A stretch of 64,000 bases of DNA from Colwellia ponticola. Lineage in GTDB: Bacteria > Pseudomonadota > Gammaproteobacteria > Enterobacterales > Alteromonadaceae. The stretch lies in assembly GCF_005885605.1 (NCBI RefSeq), contig NZ_SZVP01000010.1:1-64000 (forward strand), in the 5' to 3' direction. Positions 87 to 5,820 of this stretch are shown here, in pieces (position 1 is the first letter of the stretch; each line of letters starts with the position of its first letter). The notes under the pieces were generated by a model. It was given only the letters and a program-made list of their open reading frames with translations. It had not been told where the DNA came from and made no database searches. The translations under genes were made by a program, and so were the position numbers.

Positions 87-414
87 TTAAACCACGTCAT
101 GTTTTTAAGGTGTTTTTAAGGCTTTTTTAAGGCTTTTTTAAGGTTTTTTTAAGTATCATTAAGTATTTTTTAAGTATTTCTTGAGGTGCTTTTAATGGCG
201 CTTTAAGTTAGCGGTAGACTACTATTCACTGTGAATACAAAGCCGCTGAATTCAGATATATGTTAACTTCTAATTATGGTTAACGCTTTTTATTATATAG
301 GTATACACGCTTTATACGGACGTTTTAAGAGTCGCTATTTTTCTTTTTTAATAACAACATAGTCATTTCAATGAGATTGGTAGTTACTAAATAATTCTTA
401 GTGGAGTATAAAAT
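87..414. other. Upstream region of the repeat-protein gene
   Basis: This AT-rich region without a gene lies between the insertion-sequence end and the 415 start. It holds the phased T-tract array (separate entry) and then ordinary AT-rich sequence. A TATTATATAG stretch near 291-300 is a possible -10 element for the downstream gene, which would give a leader of roughly 100 bases. GGAG at about 401-404 is a good ribosome-binding site for the start at 415. The promoter is only a guess. Confidence 0.4.
101..174. repeat. Helically phased T-tract array (TTTTTTAAG units)
   Basis: Seven units of the form T-run followed by TTAAG sit one after another. The AAG ends fall at 109, 120, 131, 142, 153, 163 and 174, so spacing is 11, 11, 11, 11, 10 and 11 bases. 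T-tracts repeated once per helical turn are known to bend DNA. The array lies about 240 bases upstream of the repeat-protein gene and just inside the insertion-sequence end, so it could shape promoter activity, bind a nucleoid protein such as H-NS, or simply be a slippage product. Confidence 0.7.
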
Positions 415-2154
415 ATGAAATCTTTTAACAAAAACATACTAGCAGTAAGTATTGCTTTAATACTTAGTTCCGCCGCTAACTTAGCATGGGCAGAAGGTGA
501 AGGTGTTGATGCTGATAATTCATCAGCGGCAGCTAGTGAAAGTTCTAGCGCAAATACCAATAACTCAGATAATTCTGATAATAGTAATGATTTAGATGTT
601 GGTATAGCAGATTCGGGTAATAACAGCTCAGATAATACCAATAATTCAGATAACAGCGACAGTTCAAATAATTCTGATAATTCGGATAATAGCAACGATC
701 TAGCCATTTCAGACAATGGTAATGATATGTCTGATAATACCGACAACTCAGATAACAGCGACAGTTCAAATAATTCTGATAATTCGGATAATAGCAACGA
801 TCTAGCCATTTCAGACAATGGTAATGATATGTCTGATAATACTGATAACTCGAACAATAGCGACAACTCAGATAACAGCGACAGTTCAAATAATTCTGAT
901 AATTCGGATAATAGCAACGATCTAGCCATTTCAGACAATGGTAATGATATGTCTGATAATACTGATAACTCGAACAATAGCGACAACTCGGATAACAGCG
1001 ATAGTTCAAACAATTCAGATAATTCAGATAATAGTAACGATCTTGCTGTTGCTGATAGTGGTAACGATAATTCGAACAATAGTGATAATTCAGATAATAG
1101 CGATAGTTCAAACAATTCAGATAACTCGGATAATAGCAATGATTTAGCTATTTCAGACAATGGTAATGATATGTCTGATAATACTGATAACTCGAACAAT
1201 AGCGATAACTCAGATAACAGCGATAGTTCAAATAATTCCGATAACTCCGATAGCAGTAACGATCTTGCTATTGCTGATAGCGGTAATGATAACTCTGATA
1301 ATTCCGATAATTCGAATAATAGCGATAACTCTGATAGCAGTAACGATCTTGCTATTGCTGATAGCGGCAATGATAACTCTGATAATACCGATAATTCGAA
1401 CAATAGCGATAACTCGGATAATAGCGATAGTTCAAATAACTCAGATAACTCAGATAATAGTAATGCGCTAGCTATTTCAGATAATGGTAATGATATGTCT
1501 GATAATACCGATAATTCTGACAATAGTGATAGTTCAAATAATTCTGATAATTCAGATAATAGTATCGATTTAGCTGTTTCAGATAGCGGTAATGATAACT
1601 CAAACAACTCTGATAATAGTGATAACTCAAATAACTCTGATAATAGTATGGCTAAGGCAAGTGCCACGGGTTCTGCCGCTGCTAACAATGGAGGAGTAGC
1701 GAGCACTGATAACTCAGACAATAGTGATAATAGTAATAATAGTGACAACAGTTATGCCGATGCTAATCACCGCTCAGCTTCAGCTAATAATGGTAGTACC
1801 GCTAGTGTTGATAACAGCGATAACAGTGACAATAGCGATAATAGCGACAACAGCGACAACAGCGACAATAGTTCTGCATGGGCTGAAGGTTGGGGAACAT
1901 CTGCAGCAAATAATGGTGGCACCGCAACTACAACCTATACCTATAGTGTTAACGAATCTGCATTAACGGGTACAGTAACTGATAATAGTGTTGCTTATAA
2001 CTTTGATAATGCTTCTACAAAAACGTCTAGTAATAATATGACGGATACCTTTAACGGTACTGCAGGTATTAACCAAAATGTACAAAACCTTGGTAATAAT
2101 GCATTAACGCAGCAACAGGTATCATTTCAAGGGAATGTTAATGTAAATCCATAA
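415..2154 (+). CDS. Secreted Asp/Asn/Ser repeat protein, putative Fap-like amyloid or adhesin
   Basis: This 579-residue protein begins with a clear signal peptide (residues 1 to about 26, ending NLAWA). Residues about 30-430 are low-complexity D-N-S and N-N-S triplets broken ten times by a more hydrophobic motif such as NDLAISDNGNDMSDN. Two Ala/Gly/Asn blocks follow (about 413-437 and 451-467), then another DNS run. The non-repetitive C-terminus contains INQNVQNLGNNALTQQQ, the Asn/Gln-rich style seen in bacterial functional amyloids. It has no cysteine and is strongly acidic. The downstream C39 peptidase and coiled-coil outer-membrane barrel make it the likely exported substrate, comparable in role to FapC. 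I do not recognise the repeat itself. It could instead be an adhesin or an ice- or calcium-interacting surface protein. Confidence 0.75.
   Translation: MKSFNKNILAVSIALILSSAANLAWAEGEGVDADNSSAAASESSSANTNNSDNSDNSNDLDVGIADSGNNSSDNTNNSDNSDSSNNSDNSDNSNDLAISDNGNDMSDNTDNSDNSDSSNNSDNSDNSNDLAISDNGNDMSDNTDNSNNSDNSDNSDSSNNSDNSDNSNDLAISDNGNDMSDNTDNSNNSDNSDNSDSSNNSDNSDNSNDLAVADSGNDNSNNSDNSDNSDSSNNSDNSDNSNDLAISDNGNDMSDNTDNSNNSDNSDNSDSSNNSDNSDSSNDLAIADSGNDNSDNSDNSNNSDNSDSSNDLAIADSGNDNSDNTDNSNNSDNSDNSDSSNNSDNSDNSNALAISDNGNDMSDNTDNSDNSDSSNNSDNSDNSIDLAVSDSGNDNSNNSDNSDNSNNSDNSMAKASATGSAAANNGGVASTDNSDNSDNSNNSDNSYADANHRSASANNGSTASVDNSDNSDNSDNSDNSDNSDNSSAWAEGWGTSAANNGGTATTTYTYSVNESALTGTVTDNSVAYNFDNASTKTSSNNMTDTFNGTAGINQNVQNLGNNALTQQQVSFQGNVNVNP
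583..1660 (+). repeat. Coding repeat array with modules of 84, 102, 108 or 120 bp
   Basis: The codon run encoding S-N-D-L (or close variants) recurs at 583, 691, 793, 913, 1033, 1135, 1255, 1339, 1459 and 1561. The spacings are 108, 102, 120, 120, 102, 120, 84, 120 and 102 bases. Apart from the first, module lengths differ only in steps of 18 bases, which is six residues or two D-N-S triplets. Some neighbouring modules (691, 793, 913) are nearly identical at the base level, which points to recent duplication or gene conversion. Frame is always kept. Confidence 0.85.
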
Positions 2155-2194
2155 TAGTAAAACAACATTAAGATTTACCTGAAATGAGGTTAAA

Positions 2195-2222
2195 AAGTTG
2201 CTGGCATTATTGTCAGCAACTT
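2195..2222 (+). promoter_or_regulatory. Intercistronic hairpin downstream of the repeat-protein gene
   Basis: AAGTTGCTG (2195-2203) pairs perfectly with CAGCAACTT (2214-2222) around a 10-base loop. No T-run follows, so it is not a classical terminator. It lies between the repeat-protein stop and the start of the next gene at 2241. It could stabilise the upstream message or lower read-through, so that the major substrate is made in excess. The role is inferred. Confidence 0.55.
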
Positions 2223-2240
2223 CCTATAAGGATAAAGGCT

Positions 2241-2600
2241 ATGAAAAACCTATATCAGAGTATAAGTTTATTAATCTTGTTTATCTTGTTCATAATGAGT
2301 AGCACAACCTTTGCCGAAGATGTTTTTGTAGAAAATTCGATAGTTGGACTTTTACCGGTAGCACTTGGCGATTTAGATGGAGCCAGAGGCCTTGGTGGTG
2401 TTGTTGATGTGACTAACAATGCCGATTTAGCAGCCGTGTTAACCAATAATGATGCCAGCAATAGTGTTACGGGTTATAACATCATAGATCAAGGTTCGTT
2501 TAATGATGCTAGCGGTGTGTTTTCAATTATTCAAAATACGGGTAATAATGTCATCATTCAAGACTCGACTATCATTACCATTACAATATCGCCAGAGTAA
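2241..2600 (+). CDS. Small secreted Asn-rich protein of the Fap-like locus
   Basis: This is a 119-residue protein from the ATG at 2241, which has GGATAAAGG just upstream; the longer reading from 2184 has no ribosome-binding site and would bury the signal peptide. Residues 1-25 form a signal peptide ending STTFA. The mature part carries DVTNNADLAAVLTNND and a C-terminal block FSIIQNTGNNVIIQDST. The I-I-Q-N-T-G-N-N-V-I-I-Q pattern resembles amyloid-forming beta-strand repeats. It may be a minor fibre subunit, a nucleator or a chaperone of the system. No catalytic motif is visible. The function is inferred from style and neighbours. Confidence 0.7.
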   Translation: MKNLYQSISLLILFILFIMSSTTFAEDVFVENSIVGLLPVALGDLDGARGLGGVVDVTNNADLAAVLTNNDASNSVTGYNIIDQGSFNDASGVFSIIQNTGNNVIIQDSTIITITISPE

Positions 2601-2610
2601 GGTAACTGTT

Positions 2611-3306
2611 ATGAGCAAAGTATTGACAATATTTTTAGCATTAGCACTACTATTAGTTACCCCAGTACATGCTAGTAGAGTCAACTTAGGAGGTGGTTTT
2701 AGCGGAGGAAATTTTTCAATAGGTGTTTCAAGTATTAAAGAGCAACGCTTTAAAACTATCTATAAGCAACAATACGACTTTAGCTGCGGTTCTGCTACAT
2801 TGGCCAGTTTATTATCTTTTCACTATGATGATGTTATAGATGAGTTTAATGTATTTAAAGATATGTTTAGCAATGGTAATCAAGAAAAAATACAAAAGCA
2901 TGGCTTCTCGTTATTAGATATGAAACATTACTTATCACGTCGAGGTTACCGTTCTAATGGTTTTAAAATCACGCTTAAGCAGTTAGCAAAAGCTGAAATT
3001 CCGGCAATAACTATTATTAATAATAAAGGTTATATGCACTTTGTTATTATTAAAGGTAGTGATGAAAAAGAAGTACTGGTTGGTGACCCTGCTATTGGAA
3101 TTAAAGTTTATAGTAGAGCTGAATTTCAAAAAATGTGGAACAATCAAATTTTGTTTGTTATTCAAGATAAAAAAGATACAGCATCCAATCACTATCAAAG
3201 CCAAGAGGAGTGGAAGCTCCGAGTGAAAGCTCATTTAGGTCTCGCTGTAGATCATTCTAGTTTAGCGTTATTCGATATGTTTAAACCATCAGCAATTGAT
3301 TTTTAA
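2611..3306 (+). CDS. C39-type cysteine peptidase, FapD-like
   Basis: This 231-residue exported peptidase starts at the ATG at 2611, eight bases after AAGG and ten bases after the previous stop. Residues 1-22 form a signal peptide (ending PVHAS). The papain-like C39 fold is shown by QQYDFSCGSATLASLL, with the catalytic Cys in SCGSA and an oxyanion Gln just before it. The catalytic His lies in YMHFVII and the Asp in VGDPAIG. C39 peptidases cut leader sequences at export. In Pseudomonas fap operons the C39 protein FapD is required for fibre export, so a periplasmic processing role on the two upstream proteins is likely. Unlike ABC-type C39 exporters, it has no transporter domain. Confidence 0.85.
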   Translation: MSKVLTIFLALALLLVTPVHASRVNLGGGFSGGNFSIGVSSIKEQRFKTIYKQQYDFSCGSATLASLLSFHYDDVIDEFNVFKDMFSNGNQEKIQKHGFSLLDMKHYLSRRGYRSNGFKITLKQLAKAEIPAITIINNKGYMHFVIIKGSDEKEVLVGDPAIGIKVYSRAEFQKMWNNQILFVIQDKKDTASNHYQSQEEWKLRVKAHLGLAVDHSSLALFDMFKPSAIDF

Positions 3307-3344
3307 TGGCAATTTTTTATGTTAACTAAAATATAGGTATTCAC

Positions 3345-3863
3345 ATGAATATAAACCTAACTATATCTTTAAAAAAATTATACATAATTATTTTACGAAG
3401 AATAGTAGTAACTTTTATCATAGTTAACTCAACTTTTGCTTCAGCAATTAACAACGATAATATAGCTTTTGAGCAATCATTAGCCATGGAAAAATGGCGA
3501 AAAGTACCAGATACTAAATTAGCGGGTTCACGCGGAGGGTTTCTTTTACCTAATGGCGTGATTATTGACATAAGTTTTGAAAAACGTATATTTAGAAATG
3601 GTGAAGAGACCTCAAGCGCTTATTTTCAAATACCTAATAACTTGAATTTAATCAAAAATGGACAATTAAATAACACTGAATTAGCGAAGAAATCATCTAA
3701 TCAAATAGCTGACTCCTTATTTCACTCAATTATTCAAAATGATCTAGACAACCAAACACTACAAACTATCAATAATATCAATATCGATATTAAAAATTTA
3801 AATAATATCAATTTAACGCCAAGTAATAATCAGTTTTTCAATTTACACTCATTAAAAATATAA
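3345..3863 (+). CDS. Exported protein of the Fap-like locus, possibly FapE-like
   Basis: This 172-residue protein has a hydrophobic signal segment (about residues 10-33, ending TFASA). The central block reads LAGSRGGFLLPNGVIIDISF followed by EKRIFRNGEE. The C-terminal part is Asn-rich with IIQNDLDNQTLQTINNINID. Small exported proteins with an R-G-G-F / N-G / F-x-N-G-E pattern and an I-Q-N-x-L-x-x-Q tail are, to my recollection, found beside C39 peptidases in Fap-like loci, and FapE is the closest known role. That match is from memory and needs a profile search. It starts 38 bases after the peptidase stop on the same strand, so co-transcription is likely. Confidence 0.6.
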   Translation: MNINLTISLKKLYIIILRRIVVTFIIVNSTFASAINNDNIAFEQSLAMEKWRKVPDTKLAGSRGGFLLPNGVIIDISFEKRIFRNGEETSSAYFQIPNNLNLIKNGQLNNTELAKKSSNQIADSLFHSIIQNDLDNQTLQTINNINIDIKNLNNINLTPSNNQFFNLHSLKI

Positions 3864-4394
3864 GGTAAGTTATCAATTCATCTTGTCTGACAGCTTACTT
3901 GTTTACTCATTAGCGCTATAGCGTATTGATAGCCTAGTAAACTTCTAACATAAAGAGTGCTTCGAACCTTTATTGTCGATGATAAGTAAGCAAAGACTCA
4001 TCAAAAACCTATCAAATTAACTGTTGGCAAGGTAAACGTGAGTTTACTAGCAACAACCTCTGCACGTATTTTATAGCATTTCGTATAAAGCAGTCACCAT
4101 TTAGAATAGCATAGGCGACATGTTATTAATAAGCCTCTGCTGAGCCAAACCTAACCTTAACACTTTCTAGCTATTGAGTAGTTTTGTACTCAATTAAAAA
4201 TATCCTCTAGCTATTTCGCTGAATGAATTAATCAACGAGCTAGGTTTATGAAAATGTTTTCCCATATTTTTGATGTTTGTTGCAATAATAGTCGTGATAA
4301 GGCTAAAGTACTGTATTGGTAAAAGTAGTACTTTTGATCTAGTGCAAACCAAGTAGGCAGTTATCGCACAGTGAATTAAATTGAAAATAGTAAG
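3864..4394. other. Long spacer between convergent genes of the Fap-like locus
   Basis: I see no convincing gene in these 531 bases. An inverted repeat ATTGAGTA / TACTCAAT (4173-4180 and 4187-4194, loop 6) followed by TAAAAAT could end transcription of the plus-strand genes, although its stem is AT-rich and weak. A 24-codon reading frame from the ATG at 4248 has no clear ribosome-binding site and is not called. Confidence 0.4.
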
Positions 4395-5648
4395 CTAAAA
4401 CATCATAGGTACCCTAAAGTTTAGCCGCATGTCTGGAGCATCATCAGTGACACCAATATTGAGTGATAAGTTAAAGTTAGTTTGTGCGGAATAATTAAAA
4501 GAATAACCAATAATGAATTGACCAATATCGAGTTCACTACCATTAATTTTAACGTTATCAATTTTAGATTTTAATACATGCTTATGTGAATAACTTAAAC
4601 TGATAGCAGTGCGTTCATTTAACGATAACCCTAAACCAAAACTAAAGCCTAAACTATCACCAGGGTCAACAGTGCCTACTTCTTCATCTGTTTCAAAGTT
4701 ATTACCATAACTTATGTTTCCAAAAAGTACACCAGGATCGGTTGGATAAATTGCTGTTAAACTTGGTTGAACGCTGTAGTATCCTGAGCCTGTTGGTAAT
4801 TCAATAGGAAAAACAGTTCCAGGGGCAGATTCTACATACTCAACCTCAAATGGACTTGTACCTGTGGGTATAGTAGCAACAAGATTAAAGACATAGATGG
4901 CACCACCGCCCATACCAGAATTAAGTTGATAACGCGTAGAAAACTCAAGATCTCCAATATCACCACCGCTGGCGGTAAAAATTTCATCTTGGCTAGCGCC
5001 TATACTAATAGGTCGAGATCGTTGGCTATCATTACGCCCGATATAAGAAACTTTTAAATCGACTTCCCACCTATCAGTTAAACCGTATCGACTACCAATA
5101 CTGCCTATAATAGTATGACGCTTTATTTCTCTTACATCGATTAAACCAACGACTAGCGCAGGCAGAAATGAATAGGCATCGAGAAATACACGGTTAGAAT
5201 CGGTATATGAATAACCCAATCTAGGCTCTATTATTAAAGTTCCTGCTTTGGTAAGCACTCCGCTATTATTTGTGCTTAATTTAGGTATGGCAGAGACATC
5301 GATATGCGTAGGTTTTTTAGGGGGGGCTTTTCCTACAGGTTTATTAACAAGGTTCGACTTTTTATTTTTTTTAGCAGAGGTGTTTCTATTTTGGGGCGTA
5401 TTTACTGTTTTGCTGTTTACGTCTTTAATCAAACGTTTTAAATTTTCAATTTCACGACCTTGTTCTGTTAGTATTTTTTTTTGTCGCTCGAGTTCAAGCT
5501 GATATTCTTTCTTAGTTGACTCAGATGGGAGAGTTATTTGCTGTGCGTGGCTGTAATGCGATGTCGTTGCCCCTAATGTTGCCATCAGTAAAAAGAGTTT
5601 ATATTTTTTCACGCTACGGCAAGTTATATGACTATTGATTTTATTCAT
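4395..5648 (-). CDS. Outer-membrane beta-barrel protein with N-terminal coiled coil, FapF-like
   Basis: This protein has 417 residues from the ATG at 5648, which has AGAG six bases upstream; an ATG at 5654 is the alternative. A signal peptide ends near SHYSHAQQ. Residues about 45-80 form a charged heptad coiled coil (KKEYQLELERQKKILTEQGR). A Lys/Pro-rich linker follows, and from about residue 135 to the end there are alternating amphipathic strands with Gly/aromatic turns, ending in FRVPMMF with the terminal Phe typical of outer-membrane barrels. Coiled coil, linker and barrel is the layout of FapF, the trimeric pore that lets amyloid subunits out. It is convergent to the other genes of the locus, whereas known fap operons are co-directional. 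Confidence 0.7.
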   Translation of the reverse strand: MNKINSHITCRSVKKYKLFLLMATLGATTSHYSHAQQITLPSESTKKEYQLELERQKKILTEQGREIENLKRLIKDVNSKTVNTPQNRNTSAKKNKKSNLVNKPVGKAPPKKPTHIDVSAIPKLSTNNSGVLTKAGTLIIEPRLGYSYTDSNRVFLDAYSFLPALVVGLIDVREIKRHTIIGSIGSRYGLTDRWEVDLKVSYIGRNDSQRSRPISIGASQDEIFTASGGDIGDLEFSTRYQLNSGMGGGAIYVFNLVATIPTGTSPFEVEYVESAPGTVFPIELPTGSGYYSVQPSLTAIYPTDPGVLFGNISYGNNFETDEEVGTVDPGDSLGFSFGLGLSLNERTAISLSYSHKHVLKSKIDNVKINGSELDIGQFIIGYSFNYSAQTNFNLSLNIGVTDDAPDMRLNFRVPMMF

Positions 5649-5820
5649 AAGCATCTCTTTTATGACAATATCTCAAGTATTTAAGGAAGTTATTAAGTAT
5701 TGGCAGCTACCAACATAACGTGTAATAGAATTGTTGACTGGCAATTATATTGTTTAAGTTAAATATAAGCTTATATGGTAAACGTTGAAATGCAAACTAA
5801 AGTGCTAACTAATCATTATA

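Follow-up and report, generated by a model that had tools for sequence, protein, structure and literature searches.

Among the closest known systems to the locus reported here are the Fap functional amyloid system of Pseudomonas and its relatives (fapABCDEF), the Fil system of Acinetobacter with its peptidase FilB and its barrel FilC (PMC8792954, PMC11784438), and the C39 peptidases of the bacteriocin exporters PCAT1, ComA and LahT. A review of December 2025 (PMC12822426; like all papers given here by PMC number, PMC3684753 included, it is cited from excerpts) calls Fap evolutionarily "fixed", with three repeats almost invariably, and its survey found the clusters via FapB/C repeat profiles. 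Homologues of fapD and fapF occur together in five further phyla (PMC6173800). We analysed a stretch of 64,000 nucleotides from Colwellia ponticola (contig NZ_SZVP01000010.1, positions 1 to 64,000; hereafter the window), in which five genes at 415-5654 form a FapD/FapF-type export system, that is, Fap in the broad sense and no canonical fap operon. We hold it to be probable that this locus represents a sister form of the Fap system for amyloid export, one with a single repeat, in which the C39 peptidase would remove the leader of a FapE-like protein and the major substrate would join a surface fibre. The parts of this reading that the sequences support are the homologies to FapD and FapF, the position in a clade of its own, the architecture with one repeat and the motif that resembles a leader.

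The export core and its known relatives

According to the listing of open reading frames (ORFs), the locus consists of four collinear genes on the plus strand and a convergent barrel gene on the minus strand, and all five proteins have Sec-signal-like N-termini (judged by eye). A preliminary description of this DNA had named genes for a repeat protein, a small protein, a C39 peptidase, a small exported protein and a barrel, and all of them are present. The peptidase (2611..3306, plus strand, 231 amino acids, aa) matches Pfam Peptidase_C39 (4.4e-20) and the NCBIfam FapD model (1.6e-42, 145 bits). Its Gln53, Cys59, His143 and Asp159 (numbered from the Met at 2611) are unchanged in 23/23 members of its clade and in 14/14 canonical FapD, which bears out the intact Cys, His and Asp reported earlier. 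The barrel (4395..5654, minus strand, 419 aa) has an N-terminal helix and matches the NCBIfam FapF model (3.8e-44, 151 bits); a profile search gave 8e-110, and the crystallised FapF (PDB 5O67) is found from its sequence alone (4.1e-29). A low-confidence structure prediction (mean predicted local distance difference test, pLDDT, of 50) has a helix at residues 46-82 and 12 strands, and the top 18 Foldseek matches of this model are all FapF chains. By models, tree, 5O67 and Foldseek, the two proteins group with FapD and FapF, as had been expected, and not with unrelated transporter families.

Both proteins also match the Fil models (FilB 2.9e-36, FilC 1.5e-16), with lower scores than for FapD and FapF; FilB and FilC are not their best matches, and we did not count the locus as Fil. 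In a sequence search the peptidase is related to the C39 peptidases of PCAT1, ComA and LahT (5e-6 to 0.03), with which the locus also shares a leader-like spacing in a presumed substrate, whereas the window peptidase stands alone: it lacks a transporter part and has a signal-like N-terminus of its own. Curli show a general likeness in their Q/N/G-rich repeat. A shared Q/N spacing has been described (PMC5135000), and no curli families are among the Pfam and NCBIfam matches of the five locus genes. We set aside curli as well as two-partner secretion and type I export, since the barrel and the peptidase match FapF and FapD directly.

With canonical Fap the locus shares, besides the peptidase and the barrel, a gene for a FapE-like protein downstream of that for the peptidase, two secreted proteins with Fap-type repeats and the order subunits-D-E-F. 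What places it in Fap in the broad sense is an exported FapD-type C39 peptidase with its catalytic residues, a FapF-type coiled-coil barrel beside it and secreted subunits with Fap-type repeats, as found by profile-profile comparison. On the other hand, the peptidase lies in a separate C39 clade, outside the canonical FapD clade; the subunits mostly have one repeat (one in each of the two window proteins), whereas FapB and FapC have three; there is an Asp/Asn/Ser tract; the barrel gene is often inverted in the clade; and the E protein of the clade is shorter, with RGG where FapE has RGR/RGK. We recognised no FapA-like gene among the five locus genes, the rest of the genome not having been searched for fapA. 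Of the earlier label of a diverged Fap system, the homology to FapD and FapF has held, and a place within canonical Fap has not (support for the separate C39 clade 100/99). Likewise, the gene order is only partly as unusual as had been thought: the barrel gene is inverted, the preliminary description having given no strands, but a barrel homologue lies near 22/23 window-like peptidases, in 13 of those 22 cases with opposite orientation, and a separated fapF is known in 4/16 genera (PMC3792158). No barrel gene lies close to the peptidase gene of L003; that of Methylobacter is on the same strand.

The FapE-like protein and its leader-like motif

The gene behind the peptidase gene (3345..3863, plus strand) codes for the small exported protein of the preliminary description, 172 aa in length, whose likeness to FapE and leader-like motif had been missed. 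Profile to profile, its family matches canonical FapE with a probability of 93 over 38 columns (without a shuffle control). The FapE model of NCBIfam does not match the protein, a profile of the E proteins found nothing under 0.87 among PDB sequences, and the predicted structure has a mean pLDDT of 53. Residues 54-65 (3504..3539, plus strand) resemble a double-glycine leader, V-x4-L-x2-S-R-G-G-F, with V at -12, L at -7, S at -4 and a predicted cut between R-G-G and Phe66.

In C39 double-glycine leaders, hydrophobic residues stand at -4, -7 and -12 (PMC10885120). Among the E proteins of the clade, 22/23 have R-[GA]-G-[FL], and one of the residues VILMF is found at -4, -7 and -12 in 64%, 100% and 95%, which puts this triple of positions at the top of all 364. 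The values for canonical FapE are 93%, 100% and 100%, and the triple likewise ranks first of 364. In sequence terms, then, the clade E proteins carry the marks of a C39 double-glycine leader (the pair GG, GA or GS at -2/-1, with hydrophobic positions -4, -7 and -12). The regular expressions that placed the motif preset R, G and the +1 residue for the E proteins, plus Leu/Met at -7 for the small proteins; the ranking of -4/-7/-12 is independent of the preset columns in the former and partly dependent on them in the latter.

A weaker motif, V-x4-L-x3-R-G-L-G-G, with the GG two residues later than in the E protein, is found in the small protein (2358..2399, plus strand). Among the small proteins -4/-7/-12 is third of 364 triples, and GG is in register in 2/20 (three of the 23 have no motif). 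A motif profile put 12/14 FapE and 13/23 small proteins into the top 50 of 2198 other ORFs, and we saw no enrichment for FapB, FapC or the major substrates. At the 11 other loci, Fil-like or mixed, a leader matrix built from these motifs picked out 7/21 exported C39 neighbours compared with 9/417 other ORFs (p = 1.8e-6, for a cut-off picked after the ranking was known and a crude custom rule for "exported"; a rank test gave p = 4.6e-8).

These observations suggest that the RGG leader-like motif offers a predicted, testable FapD cleavage site. Processing of FapE is already an idea in the literature: the N-terminus of FapE was missing by mass spectrometry (PMC5557850), and this N-terminus and FapF are thought to be processed by FapD (PMC12822426). 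The target of FapD has been called unclear, canonical C39 sequences being said to be absent from the Fap proteins (PMC5557850), so that an RGG leader in register with the RGR/RGK of FapE bears on this question. The leader-type spacing is not among the published statements examined in these excerpts; among the literature matches listed (subscription papers and supplements were outside the scope), none concerned the window-like clade or the leader-type motif.

Potentially, the RGG motif could be a structural element of the FapE-type domain instead of a cleavage site, with the peptidase cutting the barrel linker or acting as a chaperone. We find this possible and rather doubtful. Because the E proteins share a common ancestry, their conservation by itself might have a structural cause; all 14 canonical FapE have GR or GK at the site; and FapF, too, has been considered as a target (PMC5557850, PMC12822426). 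What speaks for a leader is that the spacing fits C39 leaders both in the clade and in canonical FapE, that the leader matrix finds exported C39 neighbours in Fil-like loci, and that secretion of FapC requires active FapD and was abolished in an active-site Cys mutant (PMC5557850). A wider claim, to which we would give not quite an even chance, is that the periplasmic C39 peptidases of the whole FapD/FilB superfamily read a double-glycine-type leader shortly behind the Sec signal. This leader would be R-G-G before Phe in the clade and R-G-R/K before Tyr/Phe in FapE, with related forms among Fil-like neighbours. A bacteriocin-type processing code would thus have been moved to the periplasm, where it would gate an outer-membrane amyloid exporter, and Fap, instead of being fixed at three repeats, would include a one-repeat sister lineage about as frequent in the class sample.

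An exported-looking protein of 96 aa with the double-glycine-like motif LSTAEMGEIKGG is encoded at L080:4535-4825, on the strand opposite to a C39 gene.

The secreted proteins and the proposed fibre

The major secreted substrate (415..2154, plus strand) is a protein of 579 aa with Asp/Asn/Ser repeats. It is followed by a small secreted protein of 119 aa (2241..2600, plus strand), which is FapB-like by position and repeat and matches a FapB-repeat profile with a probability of 77; 2241 is preferred to 2184 as its start, since by eye both an AAGG resembling a ribosome-binding site and an N-terminus resembling a signal come after 2184. Neither these two proteins nor the 172-aa protein match any Pfam family or anything meaningful in NCBIfam. 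Profile searches revealed a single Fap-type repeat at the C-terminus of the substrate (2017..2148, plus strand) and another in the small protein (2463..2594, plus strand), and in the window genome only these two secreted proteins have it (profile search, E up to 1).

In canonical loci, three repeats were found in 27/27 FapB and FapC. Window-like loci have the repeat in 19/21 major substrates (17 with one copy and two with four) and one repeat in 21/23 small proteins, and the repeat profile also matches 2/23 E proteins. The repeat profile of the clade matches the canonical Fap repeat profile with a probability of 90.4 (E 1.4e-6), a score that was equalled in none of 200 column shuffles. We had to use this wider set of repeats because substrate C-termini that came mainly from Colwellia had failed to match FapC.

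The tandem arrays of the substrate, with units of 102, 120 and 222 bp and scores of up to 816, are far beyond chance. Residues 51-425 are 30% N, 28% S and 24% D; the protein without its presumed signal has 27% N, 25% S, 19% D and a net charge of -107. Similar tracts occur in Paraglaciecola, L051 and L054 and weaker ones in L052 and L046; none was found in the four-repeat forms L043 and L044 or in 13 canonical FapC. Among Colwellia the tract varies in length, whole proteins having 495 to 710 aa, and the linkers of FapC are described as variable low-complexity sequence outside the conserved repeat (PMC3792158). Since both secreted proteins have one C-terminal Fap-type repeat, the tract is probably a hydrophilic linker rather than the amyloid core. 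The earlier proposal of a major substrate other than the known FapC is therefore only half confirmed: the repeat protein matches no FapB or FapC model of NCBIfam (E up to 1), but it ends in a Fap-type repeat, and the repeats that had drawn attention to it are the likelier linker.

From these features we propose that the five proteins would reach the periplasm via Sec, where the C39 peptidase would cut the FapE-like protein after R-G-G, taking off its N-terminal leader, and might do likewise to the small protein. Removal of the leader would license export through the coiled-coil barrel. The small protein may then nucleate a fibre, which the large substrate would join by its single C-terminal repeat, with the acidic Asp/Asn/Ser tract displayed outside as a hydrated linker. 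If this is true, the Asp/Asn/Ser substrates would offer a natural model for a fibre linker with strong hydration.

Several points weigh against such a system. Fibre, cleavage and export are predictions from the gene sequences, and the NCBIfam scores of the peptidase and the barrel are far under the model cut-offs (330 for FapD and 700 for FapF). As regards the leader, the E protein of the window has Ser and not a hydrophobic residue at -4, and the -1 residue differs between the clade (GG at -2/-1) and canonical FapE (GR or GK in 14/14), so that the canonical site may be cut differently. Of five proteins in the FapA position, only one was in the top 50 under the motif profile (p = 0.11), and none of ten proteins scanned matched a leader-type NCBIfam model (E up to 10). 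As regards the repeat, 2/21 window-like major substrates lack it, as do the major substrates of 5/16 loci retrieved later (see below). Single-repeat substrates alone score 44.8 against the canonical repeat, though this is above all 200 shuffles; and a comparison of FapC C-termini with seven major substrates (five from Colwellia including the window, Paraglaciecola and Methylobacter), later replaced by the wider set, gave no match (probability 0.6).

The same exporter could also deliver a non-amyloid surface coat, the acidic protein forming a hydrophilic, perhaps cation-binding layer and the repeat serving as an export or anchoring signal only. We consider this unlikely. A single repeat, as in 17 of the 19 repeat-bearing major substrates, might not suffice to build a cross-beta core, the net charge of the substrate would suit a coat, and the repeat-like end in two E proteins is what an export signal might look like. 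However, the repeat shows homology to the one that forms amyloid in FapB and FapC, and two members of the clade have four copies.

The clade and the surroundings of the locus

We searched 369 sampled genomes of the class with the FapD model; 45 matched at E<=1e-15, in 57 places. Of these places 41 were classified, namely 15 as canonical Fap, 15 as window-like (the window included) and 11 as others (Fil-like, mixed), and 16 were left unclassified. In the C39 tree (49 rows, 8 named relatives included) the window-like clade has 23 loci with a support of 100/99 and stands beside canonical Fap with 15 loci (100/95); Fil-like loci fall outside it. The canonical group is anchored by L061 and L062, which match the FapC, FapB and FapE models of NCBIfam (FapC of L062 scores 195.3, with a cut-off of 195). 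The eight named relatives of the peptidase belong to six Colwellia loci and to Paraglaciecola mesophila and Methylobacter luteus. Within the reach of their contigs, the genes there run in the order substrate, small protein, C39, E protein. Within the window's own family the distribution is patchy, as only 7/196 genomes match (E<=1e-20).

A further set of loci was chosen by C39 score alone: 17 of 20 new places above 230 bits were retrieved and gave 16 loci. A barrel was present in all 16, the leader motif at the E position in 15, a small one-repeat protein in 13 and the repeat of the major substrate in 11; L117 and L119 have different C-termini. The export core and the motif are therefore more constant than the subunits. 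The most useful outcome, besides the testable FapD site, is a probable one-repeat sister lineage of Fap, about as frequent as canonical Fap in the class sample. The canonical repeat profile found 27/27 FapB and FapC (the proteins it was trained on) and 0/67 window-like proteins at E<0.1. A lineage of equal frequency (15 vs 15, from 369 genomes) may thus have been passed over by surveys based on FapB/C repeat profiles, with the caveat that this profile was built here and is not that of the review.

The remaining explanation, that the locus is one of the known outlier Fap operons, as in Acidithiobacillus, Vibrio, Shewanella and Aeromonas, and no distinct lineage, would account for the known variants (no fapA, a separated fapF, one or two FapB repeats, many FapC repeats; PMC3792158), for the weaker support of the window-like group in the barrel tree (84/100, the other two groups not being clean) and for the small proteins of L108 and L120, which both the clade and the canonical repeat profile match, but it is improbable given that the C39 clade was recovered in 100% of 200 bootstrap trees, that genome G012 carries both kinds, with a locus for each, on contig C11, and that C39 bit scores are either >230 or <190, bar one partial match at 218.6.

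The relatives have an OmpR-type regulator upstream of the locus. Since the window begins at base 1 of contig C2, this regulator has been cut off from the locus; a homologue in the same genome (L082:7566-8375) is found some 0.9 kb short of one end of contig C121. On the minus strand, the first bases of contig C2 resemble what we take to be the start of an IS3-type transposase, and an insertion element may lie between the OmpR-type regulator and the substrate gene, splitting the two.

Upstream of the substrate gene there are TTTAAG elements in 11 bp steps (104..207, plus strand), a putative operator, with starts at 104, 115, 126, 137 and 148, then at 169 and 202. The run lies between the contig break and the substrate gene. 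The last two elements are spaced by 33 bp, and the pair has the same spacing in L003, L004, L006, L007 and L009.

Sigma-54 activators with a VpsR domain adjoin three window-like loci (L042:2323-3768, L044:9399-10784, L047:9597-10940) and one canonical Fap locus (L062:1157-2503); VpsR is a biofilm regulator. The module of substrate, small protein, C39 and E protein is duplicated in tandem at L113:5488-10870, with a single barrel gene. Between the E gene and the barrel gene, some loci (L048:7175-7585, L054:7612-8070) code for an additional small protein that looks exported; that of L054 is matched by the barrel profile (9.8e-11).

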